A stretch of 64,000 nt of DNA from Acholoe squamosa (taxonomy: Eukaryota; Annelida; Polychaeta; Phyllodocida; Polynoidae): positions 47,989,777 through 48,053,776 of the forward strand of contig OX439050.1 of assembly GCA_949317995.1 (NCBI GenBank). Direction: 5' to 3'. Each line of letters opens with the position of its first letter. Within the stretch, counting starts at the first letter, position 1. The position numbers were made by a program, and so were the translations under genes. Positions 1,329 to 45,600 of the stretch are shown piece after piece. The notes beneath the pieces were generated by a model. That model had not been told where the DNA came from, made no database searches, and was given only the letters and a program-made list of their open reading frames with translations.

Positions 1329-3864
1329 CCTAGGTGTTGGGTTCCATTATGTCCACCCATTCCAATGTATCCACCAGATCCTTCATTCTGTTTCGTCCAC
1401 CATCTTTTGTTCCAAAATGTCCGCCAAAAATTTCTTATTCCATTGTGTCCACTAGGTTTTGTTTCAAAACATCCACATTGTGTCCACCAGCTCTTGTTCT
1501 GAAATGTTCACCAAAAGCGTTGAAATTCCATTGTGTCCACCAGCTCTTGTTCCAATATCCGCAAAAATGTCAAAATTCCATTAAGTCTGTCAGGTTTTCT
1601 TCCGAAACATCCGCAAAACGTTCAAAATTCCTTTTTGTCCACTAGTTTTTAGTTCAATATGTCCACCAAAAGTGTCTAGATTCCATTCTATCCACCAGCT
1701 CTTGTTCCAAAATGTCAACAAACAGTTCCAAAGTCCATTTTACCCCCGGGGTTTAGTTCCAAATTGTCCACAAAAATGCCCAGATTCCATTGTGTCCACC
1801 AGGTTTTTTTCCGAAACGTCCGCAAAAAGTTCCAAATTGTCCACAAGCATTTGTTCCAAAATGTCCGTAAAATTGTCCACATTCCATTGTGTCCAAAATG
1901 TCCACTAACAGTGGTTAATTCCATTTTGTCCATCAAGCTTTGTTCCAAAATGTCCTCAAATTTCATTTTGTCCACAATGTTTTGTTCCAAAATGTCCGCT
2001 AATTCCATTTTGTCTGCAAATATTTAGATGCCATTCTGTCCACCAAAATTTGTTCTGTAATGTCCGCCAATTCCATATAGTCAGACATGTTCTTTTCTAA
2101 AATGATTTGATATCTGATGAGGCCTCAGTGGTTGAAATAGTCTGATAGCCACCATCAATGGTGTCCCTATAGAGGCCTATTGAGCAGGAAAAAAATTGGC
2201 CCTACCTCTGAACCCGACATCAGCACAGGTTTTGATTTTTAACTCCACTTTTTTGGTCTTGTGCATGTCAGGCTCATTTTGGTAATATGCTATATCACAG
2301 GGGATTGTTTCTGGGGACAGGTAAAAAAATCATTAAAAGTTTACAAAAAATCTTAGAAATTCTCAAAAATAAATCTCTGAAATTCTCAAAAGTTTATGGT
2401 TGGAAACAAACATTTTTTTTCTTATTTGGCCTGATATTGATGCGGTTATTGCTCTAAAACAAAAGTAGAACCTGTTTTGGGTATGCAGTTGTAGCTAAAA
2501 ATTGAGAGAGGGTCAATCTATTATTAATAGACAGATTTTCAGAACTTTCCCCACATGACCCAGTTAGAAGTGAATGATTTTTCTTTACCATGCAGTTTTG
2601 GTTGATTTTACCTCCACTATTACTACTTAAATCTTCCTTTACCAGATTATTTCAGAGCAAAGTCAGGTTATATTATAACTAATAAAGTGGTTTTCTGATG
2701 AGAAAGATTTTGTCTCAAGTTTGCAAGACTGCCAAAGAGAAAGTATATAAAAGGTATAGACTAGTTGTTTGGACTGTATGGAGAACCCAACTCAGTGTTT
2801 GGCCACAACAGAAATCTAAGAGTTTAAGAGAATTTTGAGGAAGTTACAGGGTGCTCAAAATTGGTAAAAAATTGGCCCAAACTACGCATAAATGCGTAAT
2901 CAGTAAAGGAAGACTTAAAAGTTAGTAGAGTTTCTGTGGTTCGCAGCTATATAGCTATATCAGAAACAACAGTCTAAAAATATCCTAAATAGCCTATTTA
3001 CATCCATCAATCATGACTTTCTTGGAATGTTAAAAAAATCAGACCATTTCAACCAGTGAGTGCTCATCAGATATTAAATCATTTTAGAAGAGAACCTGGC
3101 TGACTATTTGGAATTGGCAGAATTTTAGAACAAATTTTAGTGGACAGAATGGCATCTAAATATTTGCAGACAAAATAGAATTAGCGGACGTTTTGGAACA
3201 AAACGTGTACAAAATGGAATTTGAGGACATTTTGGAACAAAGCTTGATGGACAAAATGGAATTAACCACTGTTAGTGACACAATGGAATGTGGACAATTT
3301 TGTGGTCATTTTGGAACAAATGTCTGTGGACAAAGTGGAATTTGGAACTTTTTACGGACGTTTTGGAACAAAACCTGGTGGACACAATAGAATCTGGGGA
3401 TTTTTGCGGACAATTTGGAACCAAACCCCGGGGACAAAATGGACTCTGGAACTGTTTGTGGACATTTTGGAACAAAACCTAGTGACACAATGGAATTAGG
3501 ACATTTTTGCGGACATTTTGGAACAAGAGCTGGTGGATAGAATGGAATCTGGACACTTTTGGTGGACATACTGGACCAAAAAGTGGTGGAGAAAATGAAA
3601 TTTTGAACCTTTTGTGGATGTTTCGGAAGAAAACCTGGTAGACACAATGGGACTGAGATTTTTCGCGGATATTTTTGAACAAGAGCTGTTGGACACAATG
3701 GAATTTTGACACTTTTGGTGGACGTTTTAGGACAAAACCTGGTGGACACAATGGTATAAGTAAATTTTGGCGGACATTTTGAAACAAAAGATGGTGGACA
3801 GAATGGAATTAAGTATCTGGCAGATACATTGGAATGGGTGGGCATAATGGAACCAAACACTAGG
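1329..3864. mobile_element. Foldback-like element, 2.5 kb, arms made of degenerate tandem repeats
   Basis: A left arm (about 1,329-2,143) and a right arm (about 3,037-3,864) are inverted copies. Each consists of many degenerate units of the form CCATTGTGTCCACCAGSTYTTGTTCCAAAATGTCCGC (written in parts: CCATTGTGTCCACCAG, then TTGTTCCAAAATGTCCGC). The outer ends match as CCTAGGTGTTGGGTTCC / CCTAGTGTTTGGTTCC, the inner ends as ATCTGATGAG...GTTGAAAT. The ~900-bp centre shows weaker inverted similarity and no coding frame. Long inverted ends built of short repeats are the definition of Foldback elements. Open frames within the arms (up to 205 codons) are by-products of the repeat. CACAG occurs just outside both ends (1,321-1,325; 3,867-3,871) but not flush, so no target duplication is claimed. 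Confidence 0.85.
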
Positions 3865-8040: not shown

Positions 8041-8557
8041 CCAAAGTAATGCACCCAGTCCCTTACCAAAGTAATGCACCCGGTCCCTTACCAAAGTGAT
8101 GCACTCAGACCCTTACCAAAGTGATGCACTCAGACCCTTATCAAAGTGGTGCATCGAGTCCCTTACCAAAGCGATATACCCAGTCCCTTATCAAAGTGAT
8201 GCACTCAGACCCTTATCAAAGTGGTGCATCCAGTCCCTTACCAAAGTGGTGCACCCAATCCCTTACCAAAGTGATGCACCCAGTCCCTAACGAAAGTGAT
8301 GCATCATATCCTTTACCAAAGTGGTGCATCCTGTCCCTTACCAAAGTGATGCACTCAATCCCTTATCAAAGTGATACACCCAATCCCTTACCAAAGTGGT
8401 GCATCCAGTCCCTTACCAAAGTGATACACTCAATCCCTTATCAAAGTGATACACCAAATCCCTTACCAAAGTGATGCATCCAGTCCCTTATCAAAGTGGT
8501 GCACTTAGACCCTTACCAAAGTGATGCACTCTGTCCCTTGCCAAAGTGATGCACCCT
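8041..8557. repeat. 26-bp minisatellite, ~20 units
   Basis: Unit CCAAAGTGATGCACCCAGTC plus CCTTAC, with variants GTGGTGCATC, GTGATACACC and CAGACCC. Open frames here are artefacts of the repeat. Confidence 0.95.
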
Positions 8558-18289: not shown

Positions 18290-19295
18290 AAAGGGTGGGA
18301 GTAGTATAGGCAGAGCAACTGCCCAAGTGGGGGTGGCGTCAGGGAGTGTGAGTATTATAGGGAGAGTTGGAGTAGTGTCAGGGTGTGAGTAGTATAGGCA
18401 GAGTGAGGGTAGTGTCAGGGTGTGAGTAGTATAGGCAGAGTTGGGGTAGTGTCAGGGTGTGAGTAGTATAGGCAGAGTGAGGGTAGTGTCAGGGTGTGAG
18501 TAGTATAGGCAGAGTGAGGGTAGTGTCAGGGTGTGAGTAGTATAGGCAGAGTTGGGGTAGTGTCAGGGTGTGAGTAGTATAGGCAGAGTGAGGGTAGTGT
18601 CAGGGTGTGAGTAGTATAGGCAGAGTGAGGGTAGTGTCAGGGTGTGAGTAGTATAGGCAGAATGGGGATGGCATCTAAGTGTGAGTAGTATAGGCAGAGT
18701 GAGAGTAGTGTCAGGGTGTGAGTAGTATAGGCAGAGTGAGGGTAGTGTCAGGGTGTGAGTAGTATAGGCAGAATGGGGATGGCATCCAAGTGTGAGTAGT
18801 ATAGGCAGAGTGAGGGTAGTGTCAGGGTGTGAGTAGTATAGGCAGAGTGAGGGTAGTGTCAGGGTGTGAGTAGTATAGGCAGAATGGGGATGGCATCCAA
18901 GTGTGAGTAGTATAGGCAGAGTGAGAGTAGTGTCAGGGTGTAAGTAGTATAGGCAGAGTGAGGGTAGTGTCAGGGTGTGAGTAGTATAGGCAGAGTGAGG
19001 GTAGTGTCAGGGTGTGAGTAGTATAGGCAGAATGGGGATGGCATCCAAGTGTGAGTAGTATAGGCAGAGTGAGAGTAGTGTCAGGGTGTGAGTAGTATAG
19101 GCAGAGTGTGGGCAGTGTCAAGGTGTGAGTAGTATAGGCAGAGTGAGAGTAGTGTCATGGTGTGAGTAGTATAGGCAGAGTGTGGGCAGTGTCAGGGTGT
19201 GAGTAGTATAGGCAGAGTGGGGGTAGTGTCAGGGTGTGAGTAGTATAGGCAGAGTGTGGGCAGTGTCAGGGTGTGAGTAGTATAGAGTGGGGGTT
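18290..19295. repeat. 37-bp minisatellite with higher-order structure, ~27 units
   Basis: Unit GTGTCAGGGTGTGAGTAGTA plus TAGGCAGAGTGAGGGTA. A variant unit (GAATGGGGATGGCATC) recurs at 18,660, 18,771, 18,881 and about 19,030, that is every three or four units. Confidence 0.95.
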
Positions 19296-19509: not shown

Positions 19510-20640
19510 AGAAACACATTTCACCATTTTTGCTGTAAGTGCTTACTTGGATATGGTTTATGAAACCTTAACAATAGGAAAACTACCTTCTCTATCTTTA
19601 TTGACTATAAAAAGGCATTTGATACTGTTTCCCACCCCATACTAATACAATAATTATCTGACTATGGACTTAGTGACAATACATGTGATTGGTTTAAGTC
19701 TTACCTGACAGATAGGACCCAGGAAGTTGGTGTGAATAACAAATTTTCTAAGACCATGCCTATAATGTATGGAGTTCCACAAGGCTCAACAGCAGGTCCT
19801 ATTTTATTCATTATCTATATAAATGACCTGGTGAAGCAGGTAGGAAACTGCAATATAGTTCTTTATGCTGATGATGCTGTGATTTCCCCCCACTGATCTG
19901 AGGGAGCTACAAGTTGCTTTAAATAAGTTGTCAAGTTGGTGTATTATGAACAGTCTTACAATAAATCAGAAAAAAATTCATTGGCCCACCACCGGCCATA
20001 CATCCCAATTTCTATATTAGCTAGGGAGTTCAACTGGAAGTAGTACAAACCTTCAAATATCTGGGTGTAATCTTAGATAAACATATTAGTACTGTATATG
20101 ATAGGGTAAACTCCAAGGTTATACAATTAGCTAAAATTAAGAAAGCATACAGATGTTAATAGTGCTCTGTATATCTATACCAGCACCATTCTTCCTCATT
20201 ATGACTTTTGTGCTGTAATCTATGATGATAATTGTAAGGACCAACTCAAAGACTTGCAGCTCCTTCAAAACAAGGCGTTGAGAATAGTATATAATGTCAG
20301 GCTTGGACCTAACCCAAGCATGATCACAAGACAAACAGTCATGATAGGGCCAATGTCAAAAGTCTGAGAGAGAAGGTATATTTACTATGCCTATGATCTA
20401 AAAAGTAATGTTGATCTCATTGACAATAGTGATTTAGCAACCAGGTGTTTTGACGGTACGAGGTACCATTACACTTGCATCAAACATCCTGTATATGGTA
20501 AATCAGCCAAATTTAGAGCGATAAACTGCTGGAATAACCTCTGTGCAAAATACACTAATATTATGGGGAAAGAATTATTCAAAAACACAATCCAAAAGGA
20601 TTTCCCAAATGGTTTTATTATACCAATTAATACAGACTGA
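19510..20640 (+). pseudogene. Non-LTR retrotransposon relic with reverse-transcriptase core
   Basis: Fragments in shifting frames give, in order, SAYLDMVYETLTIGKLPSLS, FIDYKKAFDTVSHPIL (motif A), GVPQGSTAGPILFIIYINDL (motif B), LYADDAV (catalytic YADD), LSSWCIMNSLTINQKK, FKYLGVILDKHIS, LPHYDFCAVIYDD, LQLLQNKALRIVYNVRLG, and the end FPNGFIIPINTD with TGA at 20,638-20,640. Frame changes near 19,590 and 19,900 and several in-frame stops make it inactive. Neither the 5' end nor the endonuclease is present. Confidence 0.85.
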
Positions 20641-32100: not shown

Positions 32101-35100
32101 ATTATGTAGGATAAAGAATGCAAGATATTCATAATGTAGCTGAAGAAATTCAACAAATCCTACATTAACAAGTATCTCCTTCAATGCTATATGGACGTTG
32201 AATGCAAAATGTAAAGATAGAAGCTAATAGGATATCTGTGTTAGAGGTAGATTTCTAAGTCAGAGATGAAAAATGTATTTCTCGGAGTTATTGCAAGTCA
32301 TAACAAAAAAAGAAAAGAAAATCATATTTTTTTTTTGCGTGCACTTTGATTCTAAACACAGTTGCTGTCAAAAACATCATGATTGTTTTATTTCCATAAT
32401 TGCTTTATTTCTATCGGTCTTGGAACCAATGCTCCAAATGTTGTACTGCCAAATTACGGGATAAAAACCACCTTAGGATTATATTATGCACTATTATAAT
32501 TACCAAAAAGTTGACCTACCTTCATGATGGTGTCCGTGTCAGCCAGGGCTTGTTTGGCCAGGTAACGTTCACGTTTGATCTTGATCTCCAGACTCTCAGG
32601 GACGTCCGGTACAAGGATGTCAATCAGTCGGCATATACCGAACACTATGTGCTGTAAGGTGGCATATGCATATATTAATATTACTCCGAGAGAGATTGAT
32701 TGATTGATCGGTTTGACTGATTTCACGTCCCAACCAGGGTCTGGCAATGCTAATCAAACTTGTTCTGAAACTGACTCCCACACACAAAGAAACGCACAAG
32801 GATCATCCATTCTTGTTCGAAAGTTTGTTGCTTTCTTTTTCTCGTGATCTATTTAAATACTGCCTAGCCGATATAGCACATGACCGGATCCTTCTTGGAC
32901 ATGAAATAGGGTGCATATATACTACCATATTGAGTATAGTCAAGATAAAAATTAAGACCAGATATTGAACATTAATGTTAACACATCCACCAATGAACAG
33001 TGGTGATAGGGTACCACTCGTTACAGATGATCAAAATATCATGAAAACTATTACATGAAAAATTGAGTAGTCAAGGCTGTAAGAACTCACCTCGAATACA
33101 ATAACGAACAAGAGTCGAACACACAGTAGTTGGAAGTAAAACATGGTATAGTTTCCGTATTCGTCACGATAGTCTTTATACCTGTAATTGAATACTCTTT
33201 GTTAGTAAGCCAGCATCATCAGACACATTGTATGTCTAAAAGAATTGTACAGGAGTCATTGATGTTAACTGATTATATTTTCACTGCTACTCCACACTTC
33301 CATGACTTTGCCAAATCTCTAAAAGTTTGTAAGGTCTCCAAACCATATCCCTCACAATACATCCAAAACGGGTTGAGGCAGAACGAAATAATACCTTTAT
33401 AAGTACATGTAGATACCATGTACGCATCATATATCATTGAGCACTATTCTCTGCAAAAAAAAAGAAGAAAAAAGCAGCATGGGTACCTCCTCCACCAGAA
33501 AAGAAAACCACCCCCTGCCTATGATGATGATAACGATGATGATGGACACGTAAAGGAGCCCCTCCCCCTGCCGCATGCTGTCATTCACATAATGGAATAA
33601 AAATGTGAGTGAGTGAGTGAGTAATAGGTGTTTCGACAGCTAAGGTCATATTTATGGCGATAACGACATTACACAATTCCACAGAGGAATGTGTCAATGC
33701 CCACACATATGTGCACCACACACATCCTGAAGGGATAGAAAAGAGGAGAAATAAACCCTTTTAAGTGGGCTAGGGAAGCCCGGAATAGAAATGTAAAAGC
33801 TTGACGAAGGGGGGAGGATTAAAGTGACGTTATTTATGGATGGCCCCCTACCTGCAGGGTTGAGATAAAGTGCCATTAGGTGCCGTGGTGAGGGTAAAGT
33901 CGACGTAGCCGGTCAGGTCCCAGTTATACTGGTACTGGTACAAGAGTCGTGGCAGGAACTCGGACGTAAACGCGATCAAGAAAGCCTGAATAGAATAGAT
34001 CATAATGGTTAGAGCTTATTGCTACAAGATCATGGGTATAAATTTCAGAATTTCAAATGTATTCTTTTATAATTTACAAATTTCGACTTTAAGAACATTG
34101 TATCTGCGTCAGCAGTGGAATCCATTAACATGGAGCAGCATAGGGCCAGACAAAATTTGCTTTATAATAATTATTATAACCAAAGTGCCCTGTAATAAAC
34201 CATACTATTCCTAGCGGATTTATCGGAAATAGCAAAGTGGAACCCTTTAGATTTTGCTCCTAGATAATTATAGGTAGGTTTCAATACTCAAATTAATTAA
34301 GTCTTCAACAGATCCCAACATCTTGCTGCAGCTGCTCTTTTATTTGAGCCACTTTTCACTACATATTTTTCGTTTAGTAAATATTGCAATTTAATTTGAG
34401 CCCAAAAATAAAAATTATTTTGTACCTTTACAGAAAAAAATCTACTTACATTACTAATGACAGCTAGTTGTGCAAGTGCATCCAGAATGGTAAACCAGAC
34501 TCCTATGTCCTGTGCACGCTCTGCGATGGGGCGGCGCGTCTCACACACAAACTTGTGGGCATCAAGTCGTATTTCTAGCCAGTTGTTGAGCAGGGCAAAG
34601 AGGGGGGCCAATGGGAAGGCAGCCACGAAGATAGTGATGAAGCCAAACTGCAAAACTGATAAGGAAACAAAAGTCTTTTGATTAACAGTAATGTCTTGTC
34701 CATTTTGGAGGGGTATGTGATAACTGTAGTTTAGTGCCTTTTGGTCACATGGCATTGTTTAAGGCAAGAAGATCTATGCGAGACTGCCTCTAGATATGCC
34801 ATCGAATACATTTTTAAAACATTTATTGCGCATATATAGAGATGAAAATATGATATTCAAAGAATAAATTTCCCATAAATTACTGTCCTCAATTCAATGT
34901 TCATAATACTTAGGTACTTTTTAAGGTAGTAAAGGTTTTTTTCAGTATCTTTACTACTTGCTTTTAAAAGGAAGTTGGCGCATTAATGCATATTGCCATC
35001 CTACAGGGTTGATACATGCACACCCCTTATGGTCGGCATGATGCATAAATGAAATTCCAGCCAGCACGTCACTGGAGCATCAGGCCCATCAATGGACAGG

Positions 35101-38100
35101 ATGCACACATGTATAAGCAACCTTTGAAATGTAGATTAACAAGTACAGTACTCACCCATCTCCAGGTACTAATCAAACAGGTTCTCTCCCTCTATAAGCT
35201 ATAAATGTGGATTAATGAGTAGTACTCACCCATCTCCAGGTACTCATCAAACAGACCCTCTCCCTCTATAAGCTATAAATGTGGATTAACGAGTAGTACT
35301 CACCCATCTCCAGGTACTACTCAAACAGACCCTCTCCCTCTATAAGCTATAAATGTGGATTAACGAGTAGTACTCACCCATCTCCAGGTACTACTCAAAC
35401 AGGTCCTCTCCCTCTATAAGCTATAAATGTGGATTAACGAGTAGTACTCACCCATCTCCAGGTACTCATCAAACAGGCCCTCTCCCTCTATAAGCTATAA
35501 ATGTGGATTAACAAGTGTACTCACCCATCTCCAGGTACTCATCAAACAGACCCTCTCCCTCTATAAGCTATAAATGTGGATTAACAAGTAGTACTCACCC
35601 ATCTCCAGGTACTCATCAAACAGACCCTCTCCCTCTATAAGCTATAAATGTGGATTAACAAGTGTACTCACCCATCTCCAGGTACTCATCAAACAGACCC
35701 TCTCCCTCTATAAGCTATAAATGTGGATTAACGAGTAGTACTCACCCATCTCCAGGTACTCATCAAACAGACCCTCTCCCTCTATAAGCTATAAATGTGG
35801 ATTAACAAGTAGTACTCACCCATCTCCAGGTACTCATCAAACAGACCCTCTCCCTCTATAAGCAATAAATGTGGATTAACGAGTAGTACTCACCCATCTC
35901 CAGGTACTACTCAAACAGGTCCTCTCCCTCTATAAGCTATAAATGTGGATTAACGAGTAGTACTCACCCATCTCCAGGTACTCATCAAACAGACCCTCTC
36001 CCTCTATAAGCTATAAATGTGGATTAACGAGTAGTACTCACCCATCTCCAGGTACTCATCAAACAGACCCTCTCCCTCTATAAGCAATAAATGTGGATTA
36101 ACGAGTAGTACTCACCCATCTCCAGGTACTACTTAAACAGGTCCTCTCCCTCTATAAGCTATAAATGTGGATTAACGAGTAGTACTCACCCATCTCCAGG
36201 TACTACTCAAACAGACCCTCTCCCTCTATAAGCTATAAATGTGGATTAACGAGTAGTACTCACCCATCTCCAGGTACTAATCAAACAGACCCTCTCCCTC
36301 TATAAGCTATAAATGTGGATTAACGAGTAGTACTCACCCATCTCCAGGTACTAATCAAACAGACCCTCTCCCTCTATAAGCTATAAATGTGGATTAACGA
36401 GTAGTACTCACCCATCTCCAGGTACTACTCAAACAGACCCTCTCCCTCTATAAGCTATAAATGTGGATTAACGAGTAGTACTCACCCATCTCCAGGTACT
36501 AATCAAACAGACCCTCTCCCTCTATAAGCTATAAATGTGGATTAGCGAGTAGTACTCACCATCTCCAGGTACTACTCAAACAGGTCCTCTCCCTCTATAA
36601 GCTATAAATGTGGATTAGCGAGTAGTACTCACCCATCGCCAGGTACTCATCAAACAGGCCCTCTCCCTCTATAAGCAATAAATGTGGATTAACGAGTAGT
36701 ACTCACCCATCTCCAGGTACTACTCAAACAGGTCCTCTCCCTCTATAAGCTATAAATGTGGATTAACGAGTAGTACTCACCCATCTCCAGGTACTCATCA
36801 AACAGACCCTGTCCCTCTATAAGCTATAAATGTGGATTAACAAGTGTACTCACCCATCTCCAGGTACTCATCAAACAGACCCTGTCCCTCTATAAGCTAT
36901 AAATGTGGATTAACAAGTGTACTCACCCATCTCCAGGTACTCATCAAACAGACCCTCTCCCTCTATAAGCTCATAGTCCTCCTCCCAACGCGTTTTGTCT
37001 GGGTTCTTCATCAGTCCGCCCAGCTTCCAGTGGTGGATCCACAACTTAATTTTCCTGCAGCATAAAGGGTAAAACAGTCAGCTTACACAGATCAGTTTCT
37101 TTTTCATCAGTGTAGATGAGTTATTATAGTGTATTGTATATGAATTTCCACACATCGCCCCTCTGATCTTGAGATATACTGGTCCCCTGCAGGTATTGAT
37201 GGCATAGAGATACCCCAGCATACAGGCTGGTAGACAGTCAACGTACACAGGGTGCTATGAAATGAAGGCTACCTCGGACACCTTTCAACCCCTAGTATTT
37301 GTACAAAATGCCATATTCTGTTTCAGGGGGCATCTATTTTGTTTCAGGTAGCTGTTTCAGAGCGGCCTTGGTACCATGTCCATGGAACATAGAGTATAAT
37401 ATGCAAGTGTCCTGGAAGAAATCATAGTATTATTCTCTGCACAGGACCCAATCGTTTTAACCAGCTTACTTATAGCATAATGTATTGACAATCCTCTTTT
37501 ACATTCACTACTGTATTGTACTTACGGGACCATAAGTTCCTGAGCATTGTTGATCATTTGTTTGCCGATCATAATGACTCCTAACTGCATGGCCAGCTCA
37601 ATTAGACAGCCGCCATTCTGACACTGTAATGAGGGGTAAATGGAAATATAAAGAATACAAAGAAGGTATTGTTTTAGCTTATTTGTCAAGAGGTTCTTTT
37701 CATGTCAAAAATCTAAAATTGAATTCAGGTTTTGAAGACTATGCTTTAGGTGAGAATAATAAACCTGAGTATTACACCATTCATTGATCACTTAGTATCT
37801 CCAATAAATTCAAATATAATAGGGAAAAAATATTATCTTTTTATTACTGTAAGTAAGTACAACAAGGTGTACCAGTCAAATTGGTTTATATAGTTTAAGT
37901 ACATCTGGTTCCTTATATCGCACACGATTGGCATGATTAGAACCGACCTCTTCATTTCTGAGTCCAAAGAAGCGTGTGTAGTGACCGGGATAGCCGATAA
38001 AGCGCCCCTTGAAGAAGCCGACATAGATGATGGATGAATAGAAGTTGACAAATTGGAAGATGAACACTTTAAAAATCAGCTGATCCTCAAACTCAGTCTG

Positions 38101-39558
38101 TGTTCGGTGCATTTCTGTTGGAATATAAATATGAATTTCTTCAGTAACAATGACTATAGAACCGTCCCTAAAACCCATAGCAGGAATTTTATTCAATGTA
38201 GAATTGATATGAAATAGAGCATTTGGGACATGATTAGAGGTGTTATGTATGGGTGGAAAGAAATGCCACAATAGGAAGAGGCAGAAGCAGAAATGTACAT
38301 GTATCTACATCTCCCTGCTTTTTCCCTGGACTGAAATGTTCATTTCCCTGCCAGAGGCCCCAGATTAAATAAAGTTAGTGGGTGTGCCCCCTGCTCTCTT
38401 TTCAAAGAATCCAAAATCCTGGATCCTCTATTGGAGGACTACCCCAGATTATGAGCTTGGATCATATGCAGATGCCTGATGTACCTCACTGTGTGGACTT
38501 TATTCAGTCTGTATTAAATTCTGTATCCATTGTTTGAGGGCTTCCCTAGCCCACTTAAAAGGGTCTATATCTCCTCTTTCCTATTCCATTGGATGTGTGT
38601 GGTGCACATATGAGCAGGCACCGACACATTCCTCTGTGAAATAGTGCAATATAGTTCTTGCCATGAATATGAGCTTAGCTGTCAAAATGGCATTAAACAT
38701 CAATTACTCACTCACTCCGATTGTTTGAGCTTAGTCTTTTTCATCTCTAACTCTCACTTACCCCACTGTGTGAGCTTGAGGGCCAATTTCTGATATACCT
38801 GCCCCAGGGCCATGATGAGAATCAGATTGACGACCGCTGAGGACAGCGAGGCTACAGTGGCCGCCATAGATCGGATCTCATCGACCTTGAAAAGGGGGAT
38901 GCTGATCAGGACTCGGTACATGATGACAGCGATGATGAAGATCACCACCAGGATCATCTGCAAAAACACAATTATACATGTCAGATAGGCAAGGTAGAAG
39001 ACTATTTATTCCAATTCAAATTAGTGACATTTAGGCCTAACAAAAAGATATTTGTGAGAATGTACTTTAAGACTTTTTGTGCTGTTCCTGTGAAGAGTGT
39101 CGAAATTATGCCTTTTGGGGACCATGTATCATAAGGCAAAATTTCTTTTTATACGCTTATCACTCGTGAAATCAAAAGCTTCTGATAACTTCTTATCTTT
39201 GTTTCATTTTTGTATTAACCCATGGTGACACCATATAGAAAGAAAGAATTTTGTGATTATAATATGTATCCATGGGATATTCAATCAAACCACATCCAAG
39301 GTGTTTCATATTTTGGATTGATAATATGAATAATCCCTTATGAAACTAAAACTTGCTATTGAGTAAGAGGCTACCGATATCTTACCATGATTACGATAAC
39401 AGCGACTCCTGAGATGATACGTGGTATCCGCTCCCGTTGCGGAAAGTAGGGTTCTCGTACCCCGGTAATGGGGTTCTTCTCCATCGTAGGTGCCATGGCT
39501 GCATACTCCGGTCGAGGGCGCTCCTGTGATGAAAATTAAGAACAAGTAATGAACAATT

Positions 39559-39619
<61 letters not shown>

Positions 39620-42600
39620 AGATCAATTTTCTGAGCAGGTCGAGTTTGTCAATTATGTAGAAAGGTAGGATGGGAACAGAGTGTATGATAAGGCGTTCTA
39701 ACTACCAAATCTTTTCTACATGTAGTTACTAAAAGTATAAGGCAGAACTATAAAGCTTTTATGCCCCCTTTTGGCATCTAGTATAAGACTACAATTAGGA
39801 TGGAAAGATCTCTAGACGAACTGGGGAGAATAGTACGATCTACTGCTGAATCTTGTTGGATACTGGAGACTGGCTGTGCCATTTTATGTCTACAGTTCCT
39901 ACTGACAGATGTGTGTCCTTATAAATTAGATGAATGCACCTAAATGGCAAGTAAGCAATGCATCAAGCACTTAAATGTAGATTATGAAGATGTTATTATA
40001 AACGGAACAAGTAAAATACTGCAATCCATATCAAGGAGATTCATATGACACAGTCTCTTAGTAAAACTGAAAGAACATGATACCATGTAGAGGTTAGTTC
40101 CCTTGTAAGGCTAGATATCCCAAAGCGTCAGGTACAGCAGGATGGAATCTCCTCATGCTAAAGGGTTCTTTCTATCGGTAAGGTACACATAAGGTGCCTA
40201 TGCTTTTTTTCTGTTTTAAAATTTCCCCATATCCATAGATGTGTTTTAGGAGGGATGTGTATGTTATTTGTGTCACCTAGAGGAGGAAGGGAAGGTGACT
40301 CATGGTGCCCTTTGACCACCTTAGGAATTAACCCTATAAAGAAAGAGACAAGTCTATGTTTATGATGACTTCTTTTCATAGTATTTTCATTGCATAAAAA
40401 GTTTCAGTCATACTTTCTAGCAAATCTACTATTGTAAGGGCAGGAAGGAGACCTCTCTGATACAGAGTCTCCGATACAGAGTATGACGTCACAGGAGGCC
40501 AGATGCAGCCCAGTATTAACTTACAGCACTGACCGTCTACACATAGATGGTGTTTACAACTGTCTGTAGACCCTGTGGTCATATTTCCTTTCATTACTAG
40601 CACTATATAGTCCCATTGAGTTACCCTACATCATAAAAGGCTTTTGTACACCTTACTTTTATATTTAACAAACATGTCTTGTAGCACCCTCCATATTCAA
40701 ACAATGCAATGCCTGATGCATCTGGTCTCTTGTGAAGTCATACTCTGTGTCAGGGAGGCCTCCCTCCTGCTCTTACAACAGCAGATTTGCTAGAAAGTAT
40801 GACTAAATCTTTTTATTCAATGAAAATACTACTAAATGAAGACATAATAAAAATAGGCTTGTTTTTTTTCTTTTAAGGAAGGCATGATTCCCTGGACTAG
40901 TTAGAGTGTACTTGGAATCAATCCTTGACCTTGTTCATGTATTACCCATTGACAATTGGAGGGATATAGCAAAAAAGAAATATAAATCTCTGAAGTTGCT
41001 AGCAACTTTAATATTAGATGCACTTATTGACAGTTGACACAATGCTTAAGGTAGCAACCCCTTCAAACTCAGTGTATGAAGTAGCAGCACCTTCAATCAC
41101 CAGTAAACACAATGCCAAAGGTAGTAGCATCTTTAAACAAAATGTGGCTGAGGTAGCAGCACCTGCAGGAGTCAGAGGTAGCAGCACCTCTAAAACACAG
41201 TGATTGAGGTAGCAAAACACATTTAAACACATTTGCTGAGGTAGCAGCACATTTAAACACAGTGCTGAGGTAGCAGTACCTTTAAACACACAGTGACTGA
41301 GGTTGCATTACCTTTAAACACAGCGGCTGAGGTAGCAGCACCTCTAAAACACAGTGGTTAAGGTAGCAGCACCTTTGAACACAGTGGCTTAGGTAGCAGT
41401 ACCTTTAAACACAGTGGCTGAGGTAGCAGTACCTTTAAACACCCAGTGACTGAGGTTGCATTACCTTTAAACACAGTGGCTGAGGTAGCAGCACCTCTAA
41501 AACACAGTGGTTAAGGTAGCAGCACCTTTAAACACAGTGGCTTAGGTAGCAGCACTAACACAGTGGCTGAGGTAGCAGTACCTTTAAACACAGCGGCTGA
41601 GGTAGCAGTACCTTTAAACACAGTGGCTGAGGTAGCAGTACCTTTAAAACATAGTGGCTGAGGTAGCAGTTCCTTTAAACACACAGTAGAGAGGTTAAGA
41701 TTAAGGAATGTATACCTGTATGGGTATGGCAAGTGATAGAAGTACAGGTCCCAGCACAGGTACAGGTATAGTAATTAAGATTTAAAGTCTTTTATGACCC
41801 TATCAACACCTCAGACCCCTGTGCCTGGCCCCAGGTGAGCAAGGTGTATGGTGTAAACAACCTATAATTACACACAGATATAATTAACCCATATACAATC
41901 CATGGTTGCAGTAGATACTCACATACCTTAGAACCCATTTGCCAAGTCAATTATATTTTTATACATTTTTTATCCATAATATCTATTCTCCTTTCATATA
42001 CATGTAGAACACCCTCTACACGTTGAGAACTTCTAGTCTACAAGTTGTATACTGCTGGCTTGGGATTCCCCCCACGTGACCTATGACGTTACAGGTAGCC
42101 GTACCCGTACACGAAGCTATCTTAACCTCCCTAGTTACTGAGGTTGCATTACCGTTAAACACAGTGGCTGAGGTAGCAGCACCTCTAAAACACAGTGGTT
42201 AAGGTAGCAGAACCTCTAAAACACAGTGGCTAAGGTAGCAGAACCTCTAAAACACAGTGGTTAAGGTAGCAGAACCTCTAAAACACAGTGGTTAAGGTAG
42301 CAGAACCTCTAAAACACAGTGATTAAGGTAGCAGAACCTCTAAAACACAGTGGTTAAGGTAGCAGAACCTCTAAAACACAGTGGTTAAGGTAGCAGAACC
42401 TCTAAAACACAGTGGTTAAGGTAGCAGAACCTCTAAAACACAGTGGTTAAGGTAGCAGCACCTCTAAAACACAGTTGCTGAGGTAGCAGTACCTTCAATC
42501 ACAATTGCTGAGGTAGCAGTGACTTGAAAACACAGTGGCTGAGGTAGTAGCACCTCTATAACACAGTGACAGAGGTAGCAGTACCTGCAAACATGGTGTC

Positions 42601-45600
42601 CAAGTTAGAGTAAAGTATTAATGAGTAATTCTGTAAATACAACTATGCATGCAAATATGAAGCTGCCAGCACCTTAAGAAACTGGTGACAAACTTGTGAG
42701 ACATCCTGCACCAACAATGTGTGAATGGTGTGGGGAAACATAATACCATGCATGACAGCTCAGGCCATCTAACACTTACCATGACAGAACAGAATCTCAT
42801 TAGACAAGGATACAGCGTGTGTGTGGATGTGGGTTCTCAACGTATGCCAGCACGAACATCAATATTAAAGTAAACTTCACTCACCGGATTTATAATCACA
42901 ACAAGGTAACTCTCCAATGTTTTATTTTGGATGATCACAACCCTAGGCAGACCTCACATAGCAGAATGTTTCTCTTTTCTCATTCACAGAACTATCAATT
43001 CTCCTTTTCAAAATATTCTTTTTATTCATTTTCTTTTCATCAGTCTGAATGAGACTATAATTATTCATCACAATTTCTCATGCAGAATTAATAAAGTGAA
43101 AAATGTTCCCACTTGTACCATTTGAATTTGGGAATTAATGGAGAGAAAGGTGAAATCTGACCAAATTAATGAGGATTGCCTTGGGTTGAATTAAACATTG
43201 GAGGAAACGTTAATCACAGAATGCTAACTAATCATACAGTCCACGAGTCACAACGTCCAAACGTATGATGTGTGGTCGTTTTTACTTCTTAGTGAGACCA
43301 ACTAAATAGAAATAACACACAAAAATATCTAAAACTCTGCTCAACTACTTGACAATATTTACAAAAACAAAGTGCAAATAGAAATAACATTGGGTTTGAT
43401 TAGATATTCAATTGTTCTCCAAATGTTAGAATTATATAGAGCAGATGATTGTTTCTGACTAGTTGAGGTAGTACCTTGTGTATAGGACATGGCGTATACA
43501 TGGTACAAACCCAAATACAGAATCAGATTATGGTAATTTCCCAAAGTCAAAATTTTGTTAGAAGATGGAGTTTAGTTTCTATCATATCTAACTTAAGGTA
43601 ATTGAAACCAACCCCCATGTGCGACAAATAGCTTTCTCTCTAATCCTCGGTGTCTCGCTTATATACAATGTGTCGCTTATACACGAGGTTCTCGGAATAC
43701 AACATAAACTTTTACATTGACAATTTCCCATCGGTGATTTGATATCTAGGGGCCTAGGTGTCTGATCTACACTTACAAACAACATCCATGGGTGTTTAGG
43801 TTTGATATCGTAATCAAAACGAAAATGAACTTACCTCTTCCTCTTCAAAATCTAAGCAGTCCCAGTGATGAGCCAAACTAGCATTCTTACGTTTCCAATA
43901 CTCTAGGAATGTCACGGCTGTGGAGAGAAAGACAGCAATATCTTGAGTAGATGCAGACTTTTAATAGGAATGCTAGAAATATTTCAGGGCCAAATCCACT
44001 GTAAACGTTTTGACTGCCGGGCGCACGTTATTCCAAAATGCTGATGTATGACTATCCCTTGGTCAAAAAAGTGTTGGTGGAATTAGCCCTTATAAGGGAA
44101 TACAATAGAAATGATTTGTTTTCTTTTTTTTTATTTCGATTATGATACTAAAAGGGTCTCTACTCAATGTTACTTGGTTGGGTATTCCTTTTTTTGCCTG
44201 ATTATTGATAAACATACTGTGATGTGATGATTTCTCTCTCTACATTTTATCAAAAATGATTGGTTCAGCATTTGTTGGGTGGCTGATCGGTCCGTCGGTC
44301 GGCCTTTAAGAAGGTCAGTCAGTCAGTCAGTTGGTCAGAGTTTTAAACCTAATGGAATGCACACTTTAGGCTGCCCCTTGAATCAAAACAGTCATGACAA
44401 TAAACAAGAGTAGACCTTAAACCACGGTGACATCTTAGAACAAAGGAAACAATTATGCTGTGGATATTTCATGTAACTAAGGTTTAAGCCAGTTAACCAG
44501 TGCCTCAAGTGGCCAATCCAAGGTCACACCATGGATCGGCCACTTGAGTGAGTGAGTGAGTAATAGATGTTTAACGCCATTTTGACAGCTAAGGTCATAT
44601 TCATGGCAAGAACTTCATTACACAATTTCACAGGGGAATGTGTCAGTGCCCGCTCATATGTGCACCACACACATCCTGAGGGGATAGGAAAGAGGAGATA
44701 TAGACCCTTTTAAGTGGGCTAGGGAAGCCCGGGCCACTTGAGACACTGGTTATACCTATAACCCTACACAACTGTTGATAAGCTGATACTTACCCCAGAA
44801 GGAGACGAAGATGGCATAGAAGACGGTGCCCGGGTGATCAAAGAGGTAGCTGATCTTGGAGAAAAGACAGACGTCAGAGAGGTACCAGTACTGACATCCT
44901 ATCTCCTCGTCACATTGTGGGCACATCTTGAACGACTTGCCGCTGTCACACACCTCATTCCTAAAATATTACACGTACAATACAAAGTCATAAGATGCAC
45001 AGGGTTTGATACAGGGCACCTCTGGCCTACAATATTACACAACCCAAAGTCATAAGATGCATAGGGTTGGATACAGGGCACCTCTGTCCTAGAATACTAG
45101 ACAATTTAAAGTCTGATAATGCACACAACATGGTAAGACATGGGTGTAGGGATGTATTATGGCGCTCCAAAACAGTGCACACCTCTATCCTACAATACAC
45201 ATCACACAGTCACCATTCTTTTTGCCTTTGTGGCCTCTAGAAATGTATTAGCAAATGATCCTAGGCGAACGTATATATGTATAAGTCATTCTAAGTAAAT
45301 CATGATTTGTGTTTGTGTTTTGATATTTCCTTTTTCGTGCAAGAAGACAATTAAAGCAAAAAAAAAAGGAGACGCAATTAAAATTAACTTTTTTTTTGGG
45401 GTGGGGGTGAGAGTAGGCATACTCACGCTGGTACATAGGATGCCATGGTGAAGACTCCATACATGAAGACCAGGAACCCAACCACGGCAGCAGGCAGCAG
45501 CCAGGCTGTATAGAAGCCTACAATATACACGGACATAATGTACACGCTTTGGTAAAGTATCAATAACATGTATCTAGCAGGTATATATAACGTATTTCTA

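Follow-up and report, generated by a model that had tools for sequence, protein, structure and literature searches.

The window analysed here, a stretch of 64,000 nucleotides from the polychaete Acholoe squamosa, contains an anoctamin gene with a 25-copy minisatellite built from the 3' end of one coding exon and its splice donor. The array appears to be a striking new case of a kind of repeat published in amphioxus genes under the name of mirages. On balance, the array is likely to be a donor-side mirage that is nearly neutral, with exon definition selecting the donor of copy 1 and the decoy copies being spliced out.

The host gene and the repeated junction

Fifteen exons with AG and GT flanks join in a single open frame. 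The gene model is incomplete at both ends, and exon ranks given below refer to the joined exons only. From the fourth exon onward, 559 residues match Anoctamin-1 (6bgi) in a phmmer search of the PDB with E=3.7e-153, and further matches include Anoctamin-6, Anoctamin-10, and fungal scramblases, with 20 distinct sequences in all. Pfam assigns the Anoctamin domain PF04547 (E=9.9e-154) as well as PF16178 (E=3.2e-06). By these matches of its predicted protein, the gene is an anoctamin (TMEM16). ANO7 is absent among the 20 matched PDB sequences, and the matches establish no more than membership in the anoctamins; ANO7-like is the name given in an earlier sequence-only reading of this DNA. The features that define the repeated junction, all on the minus strand, are as follows.

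36927-37054, minus strand: anoctamin exon of 128 bp, 12th of the 15 found (GT-AG flanks, open-frame join, phmmer match to Anoctamin-1)
36919-36926, minus strand: authentic donor GTGAGTAC, copy 1 (in-frame join to exon 34450-34655)
35127-36971, minus strand: minisatellite of 73/74-bp units, 25 copies (Tandem Repeats Finder and unit list)
34450-34655, minus strand: downstream anoctamin exon, the splice partner (GT-AG, open frame, phmmer)

Tandem Repeats Finder describes the interval 35127-36971 with a period of 74, 25.0 copies, 95% matches, and a score of 3266. Cut at a fixed word, the array yields 25 units, 19 of 74 bp, 5 of 73 bp, and a terminal one that continues into unique intron. The final 41 bases of exon 36927-37054 form the opening of copy 1. 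Read on the minus strand, the units run from the exon end (…GAGGGTCTGTTTGATGAGTACCTGGAGATGG) through the GTGAGTAC donor and ∼20 further intronic bases to the start of the next unit, each unit combining the exon end and donor with ∼30 bp of intron. The word GTGAGTAC is present in all 25 units and occurs 27 times on the minus strand of the whole window, compared to no occurrence on the plus strand. Alignment of the exon-donor junction with its own intron reaches a score of 140, and the best of 300 Markov shuffles reaches 37, which places the repetition far above chance. The 24 copies after copy 1 occupy about four fifths of the 2,271-bp intron. The gene model, the repeat search, and the unit list thus bear out the minisatellite of an exon 3' end and donor, with 24 copies besides the first, that the sequence-only reading had proposed for this anoctamin gene. 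Its unit length of ∼73 bp needs slight adjustment to 73/74 bp, its span of 35153-37054 has misplaced borders, starting inside the last donor word and ending at the exon acceptor, and the exon that it numbered 15 is the 12th of those joined here.

Variation among the copies

The 25 units comprise 15 distinct sequences, with copies 1, 18, and 20 being identical and a mean pairwise identity of 0.955 among the 24 full units. Within the one sequence at hand, this diversity together with the return of copy 1 at positions 18 and 20 is compatible with turnover. Adjacent units are slightly closer to each other than permuted ones (2.83 versus 3.32 differences; p=0.07), similarity at lags 2 to 7 along the 25-unit array gives no signal, and only one two-unit block recurs; neighbor, lag, and block comparisons reveal no firm higher-order structure in the unit order. 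These data also bear on the proposal that the array is an assembly artefact, a false expansion of a short repeat. The array is known from a single sequence, and the cited sections of the amphioxus literature describe mirage regions as misassembled or different between assemblies. Fifteen distinct units in an irregular order with one repeated two-unit block are nevertheless unlike a mechanical stutter, making an artefact very unlikely.

The exon-derived part of the units contains the motif DEYLEM, the glutamates of which align with E702 and E705 of the 960-residue ANO1 chain. These ANO1 residues, which we take to be calcium binding, place the copied codons at TMEM16 calcium-site positions, as previously suggested. 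The suggestion that the units copy DEYLEM itself applies to 12 of the 25 copies, among them copy 1. A single copy encodes DEYLAM, and in the other 12, the first glutamate codon is replaced by TAG. Copy 6, one of the stop-bearing copies, is additionally one base short before the donor.

The stop codons coincide with an imperfect inverted repeat that spans the donor, in which the exonic GATGAGTAC and the intronic GTACTACTC pair at 7 of 9 positions. The change of GATGAG to GATTAG, found in 4 copies, raises the pairing with GTACTACTC from 7 to 8 of 9, and the change to (G/A)AGTAG, found in 8 copies, raises it up to 9 of 9, with the full pairing reached by the GAGTAG copies. All 8 double changes lie in copies with GTACTACTC, which is present in 18 of the 25 copies (hypergeometric probability of 0.04, a value inflated by shared descent); copy 25 carries GATTAG without GTACTACTC. 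Template switching between inverted repeats perfects imperfect arms according to the cited portions of the quasipalindrome literature. The stop-making changes raise the pairing of the arms, as expected for such template switching, and the pattern is no more than suggestive of hairpin-perfecting, quasipalindrome-templated mutation within the array.

The same arms could also hide the decoy donors, with the exonic arm pairing with the intronic arm in many copies and the true donor being left open. Around the donor, 7 of the 25 copies have a perfect 9-bp inverted repeat, compared to 6 of 9 paired positions in copy 1, and the local fold has an energy of about -12.3 kcal/mol in six of these seven copies and -12.5 in the seventh, compared to -7.5 for copy 1. 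Against such masking, six decoys also pair at 6 of 9 positions, equal to copy 1, the donor of which lies within a stem region of the minimum-energy fold as well. Nor is copy 1 consistently the most open of the 25 donors, with ranks of 5, 16, 11, 3, 2, and 9 in six window settings; a comparison with two settings gave mixed results as well. The effect is not robust, and masking of the decoys by hairpins is regarded as highly improbable.

Competition among donors of equal predicted strength

Two further features, which both lie within the array on the minus strand, bear on the predicted outcome of splicing.

35148-36853, minus strand: 24 decoy donors, with the +1 position at 36853 in copy 2 and at 35155 in copy 25 (unit list)
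36910-36912, minus strand: in-frame TAA for any transcript passing donor 1, within every exon-to-decoy-donor product

All 25 donors score 8.2 with a matrix derived from the other 14 donors of the gene, so that the predicted strength cannot separate them. Among the 15 donors of the gene, which range from 4.2 to 12.5 in a leave-one-out calculation, this value ranks eighth from the top; donor and acceptor matrices alike are built on 14 to 15 sites of this one gene. The candidate introns measure 500 to 2,271 nt and the upstream intron measures 471 nt. Use of donor 1 would give an exon of 128 nt, compared to 201 to 1,899 nt for the decoys.

The sequence-only reading had left the choice of the donor wholly open, and published work gives a likely answer. 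The cited sections of a study of human introns place the switch from intron to exon definition at ∼250 nt and report that of two near-equal donors under exon definition, the upstream one is preferred (PMC9225289). Five minigenes, with introns of 365 nt and a pair of identical strong donors, used the upstream donor exclusively, and weakening of both donors led to exon skipping in the larger constructs; among all human events, with donors of unequal strengths, ∼60% prefer the downstream donor (PMC9225289). The introns of 471 and 500 to 2,271 nt exceed this boundary, and exon definition with use of the upstream donor is thus expected here. The minigene donors of those sections, CAG/guaagu, are stronger than the TGG/gugagu donors of the array, and the exon-proximity rule was described for two competing donors, compared to 25 in the array. 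By analogy with this rule, splicing probably uses the copy 1 donor. Reverse transcription-PCR (RT-PCR) of amphioxus mirage genes points in the same direction, with the cited parts of the report suggesting regular splicing (PMC3087553).

We therefore favor a sequence of events in which a short exon-intron junction stretch was tandemly duplicated and later grew and rearranged in the manner of ordinary minisatellites. The acceptor at 37054 would pair with the nearest donor, that of copy 1, by exon definition, and copies 2 to 25 would leave as intron. Beyond donor 1, the reading frame continues with the five codons of GEYTC before the TAA. This codon lies in every decoy product, and the full protein is consequently never made via a decoy donor; occasional decoy use would retain the TAA and produce a truncated and probably decayed mRNA. 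Near neutrality would explain the persistence of the array. A shift of any of the 12 stop-bearing copies to the first place would break the gene, while the identity of copies 18 and 20 with copy 1 means that some unit gains and losses leave the exon unchanged.

The array length could alternatively act as a rheostat, with the decoy-spliced share of transcripts lost to nonsense-mediated decay and the copy number tuning expression. At least 56 nt separate the TAA at 36912-36910 from the end of the decoy exon (56 nt with decoy 2 and more with the others), in keeping with this proposal. The exon-proximity rule predicts little use of the decoys (PMC9225289), and the RT-PCR results for the published mirages again speak for regular splicing, both as far as the cited sections extend, which makes a rheostat unlikely. 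The titration of U1 raised in the sequence-only reading, by which the donors would form a sink for U1 snRNP, finds a starting point in 25 equal donors within 1.8 kb. The decoy donors show no sign of constraint above that of the rest of the unit: special conservation is not seen in the 24-unit alignment, in which 10 of 66 nine-column windows are fully invariant. U1 ranks with the most abundant RNAs of the nucleus, and the nascent transcripts of a single gene are far fewer than the U1 snRNP particles. A U1 sink is unsupported and scarcely credible.

A further reading concerns the decoy bodies as possible microexons. Each unit junction creates ATTTATAGCTTATAG ahead of the exon-derived part, and the stretch between the AG of the unit's TATAG and the donor measures exactly 36 nt, which preserves the phase, in 23 of the 24 decoys and 35 nt in copy 6. 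Splicing in of the decoy bodies would add 12 in-frame residues, a repetition of the calcium-ligand segment, in 12 of the 24 cases and a stop in the other 12; nine of the inserts share one sequence, with one change in each of the others. The decoy AG has an acceptor score of 4.1 in 21 decoys and 5.4 in 3 (copies 5, 13, and 16), compared to in-sample scores of 7.0 to 12.7 for 14 of the 15 real acceptors and 2.5 for the remaining one. Of 3,735 minus-strand AG sites, 914 score at least 3.0 and 341 score at least 5.4. The decoy AGs are thus weak and common acceptor-like sites, and their use is unlikely. With a weak acceptor-like AG in each copy, the decoy bodies still do not lack exon signals entirely. 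There is a slim chance that the array holds a stock of microexons poised for use, with some transcripts or individuals carrying anoctamins with one or more duplicated calcium-site segments. If true, this would be exon birth in progress, for which one strengthening mutation may suffice in some individuals.

Relationship to known splice-site repeats

The primary report of mirages is reportedly that of Canestro (2002). A human parallel is said to have been described by Turri, Cuin, and Porter (1995), namely, a minisatellite with multiple splice donors in IFI6 (6-16), where a unit of about 12 bp lies at the exon end and more than one donor is used. The units of the array are longer (73/74 bp), and use of its decoys would truncate the protein. 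Amphioxus mirages are described in the cited sections as minisatellite-like tandem duplications of exon-intron boundaries on either side of the intron and have been proposed as a source of new introns (PMC3087553). A later report, in the portion cited here, adds a mirage in PGBD5 and refers to those of Adh and troponin C (PMC3902484). The amphioxus genes named in these sections are Adh3, the globins BflGb6 and BflGb9, troponin C, and PGBD5, with units of 10 to 72 bp in Adh3, about 150 to 160 bp in the globins, and 60 and 108 bp in PGBD5. Two marks of a mirage are found in the array, tandem minisatellite-like units and a unit that straddles the junction of a coding exon and its intron, splice signal included; many mirage units likewise carry AG/GT signals in these descriptions. 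By this resemblance to the cases in the cited sections, all of them from cephalochordates, the array may be called a mirage. It differs in its host gene, an anoctamin, and in its copy number of 25, compared to 3 and 6 in the BflGb6 haplotypes and 2 to 7 in PGBD5 in the cited sections. The literature matches listed for mirages, minisatellites, multiple donors, intron gain, exon definition, and quasipalindromes include no splice-site minisatellite in an anoctamin gene.

The Rogers model of intron gain, by tandem duplication of exon sequence containing AG/GT, and the model in Figure 7 of the globin paper share with the array, as far as the cited parts describe them, a common raw material, the repeated exon end and donor. 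Contrary to these models, the array lies within an intron joining conserved exons, and no new intron is evident from the sequence.

A search of the exon junctions against their own introns shows a further repeat of this type in the same gene.

44944-45113, minus strand: decayed splice-site repeat of two 62-bp units, the authentic acceptor, and the first bases of exon 44794-44960 (Tandem Repeats Finder, 44977-45113, and junction alignment)

At their ends, the 62-bp units repeat, with differences, this acceptor and the opening bases of the exon. The alignment score of 48 is reached by none of 3,000 Markov shuffles, the maximum of which is 30. From this alignment, the repeat is read as a second, decayed case in the anoctamin gene, on the acceptor side. 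Only this acceptor (48) and the array (140) stand out clearly among 28 such tests. The acceptor of exon 36927-37054, with a look-alike around 37250 on the minus strand, scores 28 (1 of 300 shuffles), and the donor of exon 38762-38957, with a look-alike at 38732-38762 on the minus strand, scores 24 (3 of 300 and 31 of 3,000); both are marginal among 28 tests and are not claimed. For the remaining 24 junctions, at least 12 of 300 shuffles reach the score of the match to their own intron.

Other repeats occur in the window. Related minisatellites of 30/31 bp lie at 41175-41683 and 42157-42586 within a 4.3-kb anoctamin intron; the neighboring splice junctions align with this intron no better than shuffled sequences do. 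Two 52-bp minisatellites at 1476-1888 and 3277-3809, ∼1.4 kb apart and in opposite orientation, apparently belong to one family, judging from their consensus units by eye. A 25-bp minisatellite with 20.6 copies is found at 8041-8556, and a 37-bp minisatellite at 18326-19285 closely precedes a reverse transcriptase fragment on the plus strand (19654-19893; PF00078, E=2.5e-11). A dispersed repeat at about 1.0, 5.6, 24.6, 33.6, and 44.7 kb on the minus strand has similar open-frame translations (…GCVWCTY…THS…KLCN…).

Beyond the sequence-only reading, this analysis adds the second decayed repeat, the hairpin-perfecting mutation pattern, and the 36-nt decoy bodies. The second case supports the view that splice-site repeats repeatedly arise and fade. 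The array itself represents a natural 25-way contest of donors of equal predicted strength, far larger than the two-donor minigenes in the cited sections of the published work. The contest takes place in a minisatellite on calcium-site codons, and with stops in half of its copies, any exchange that involves copy 1 could amount to a null mutation.
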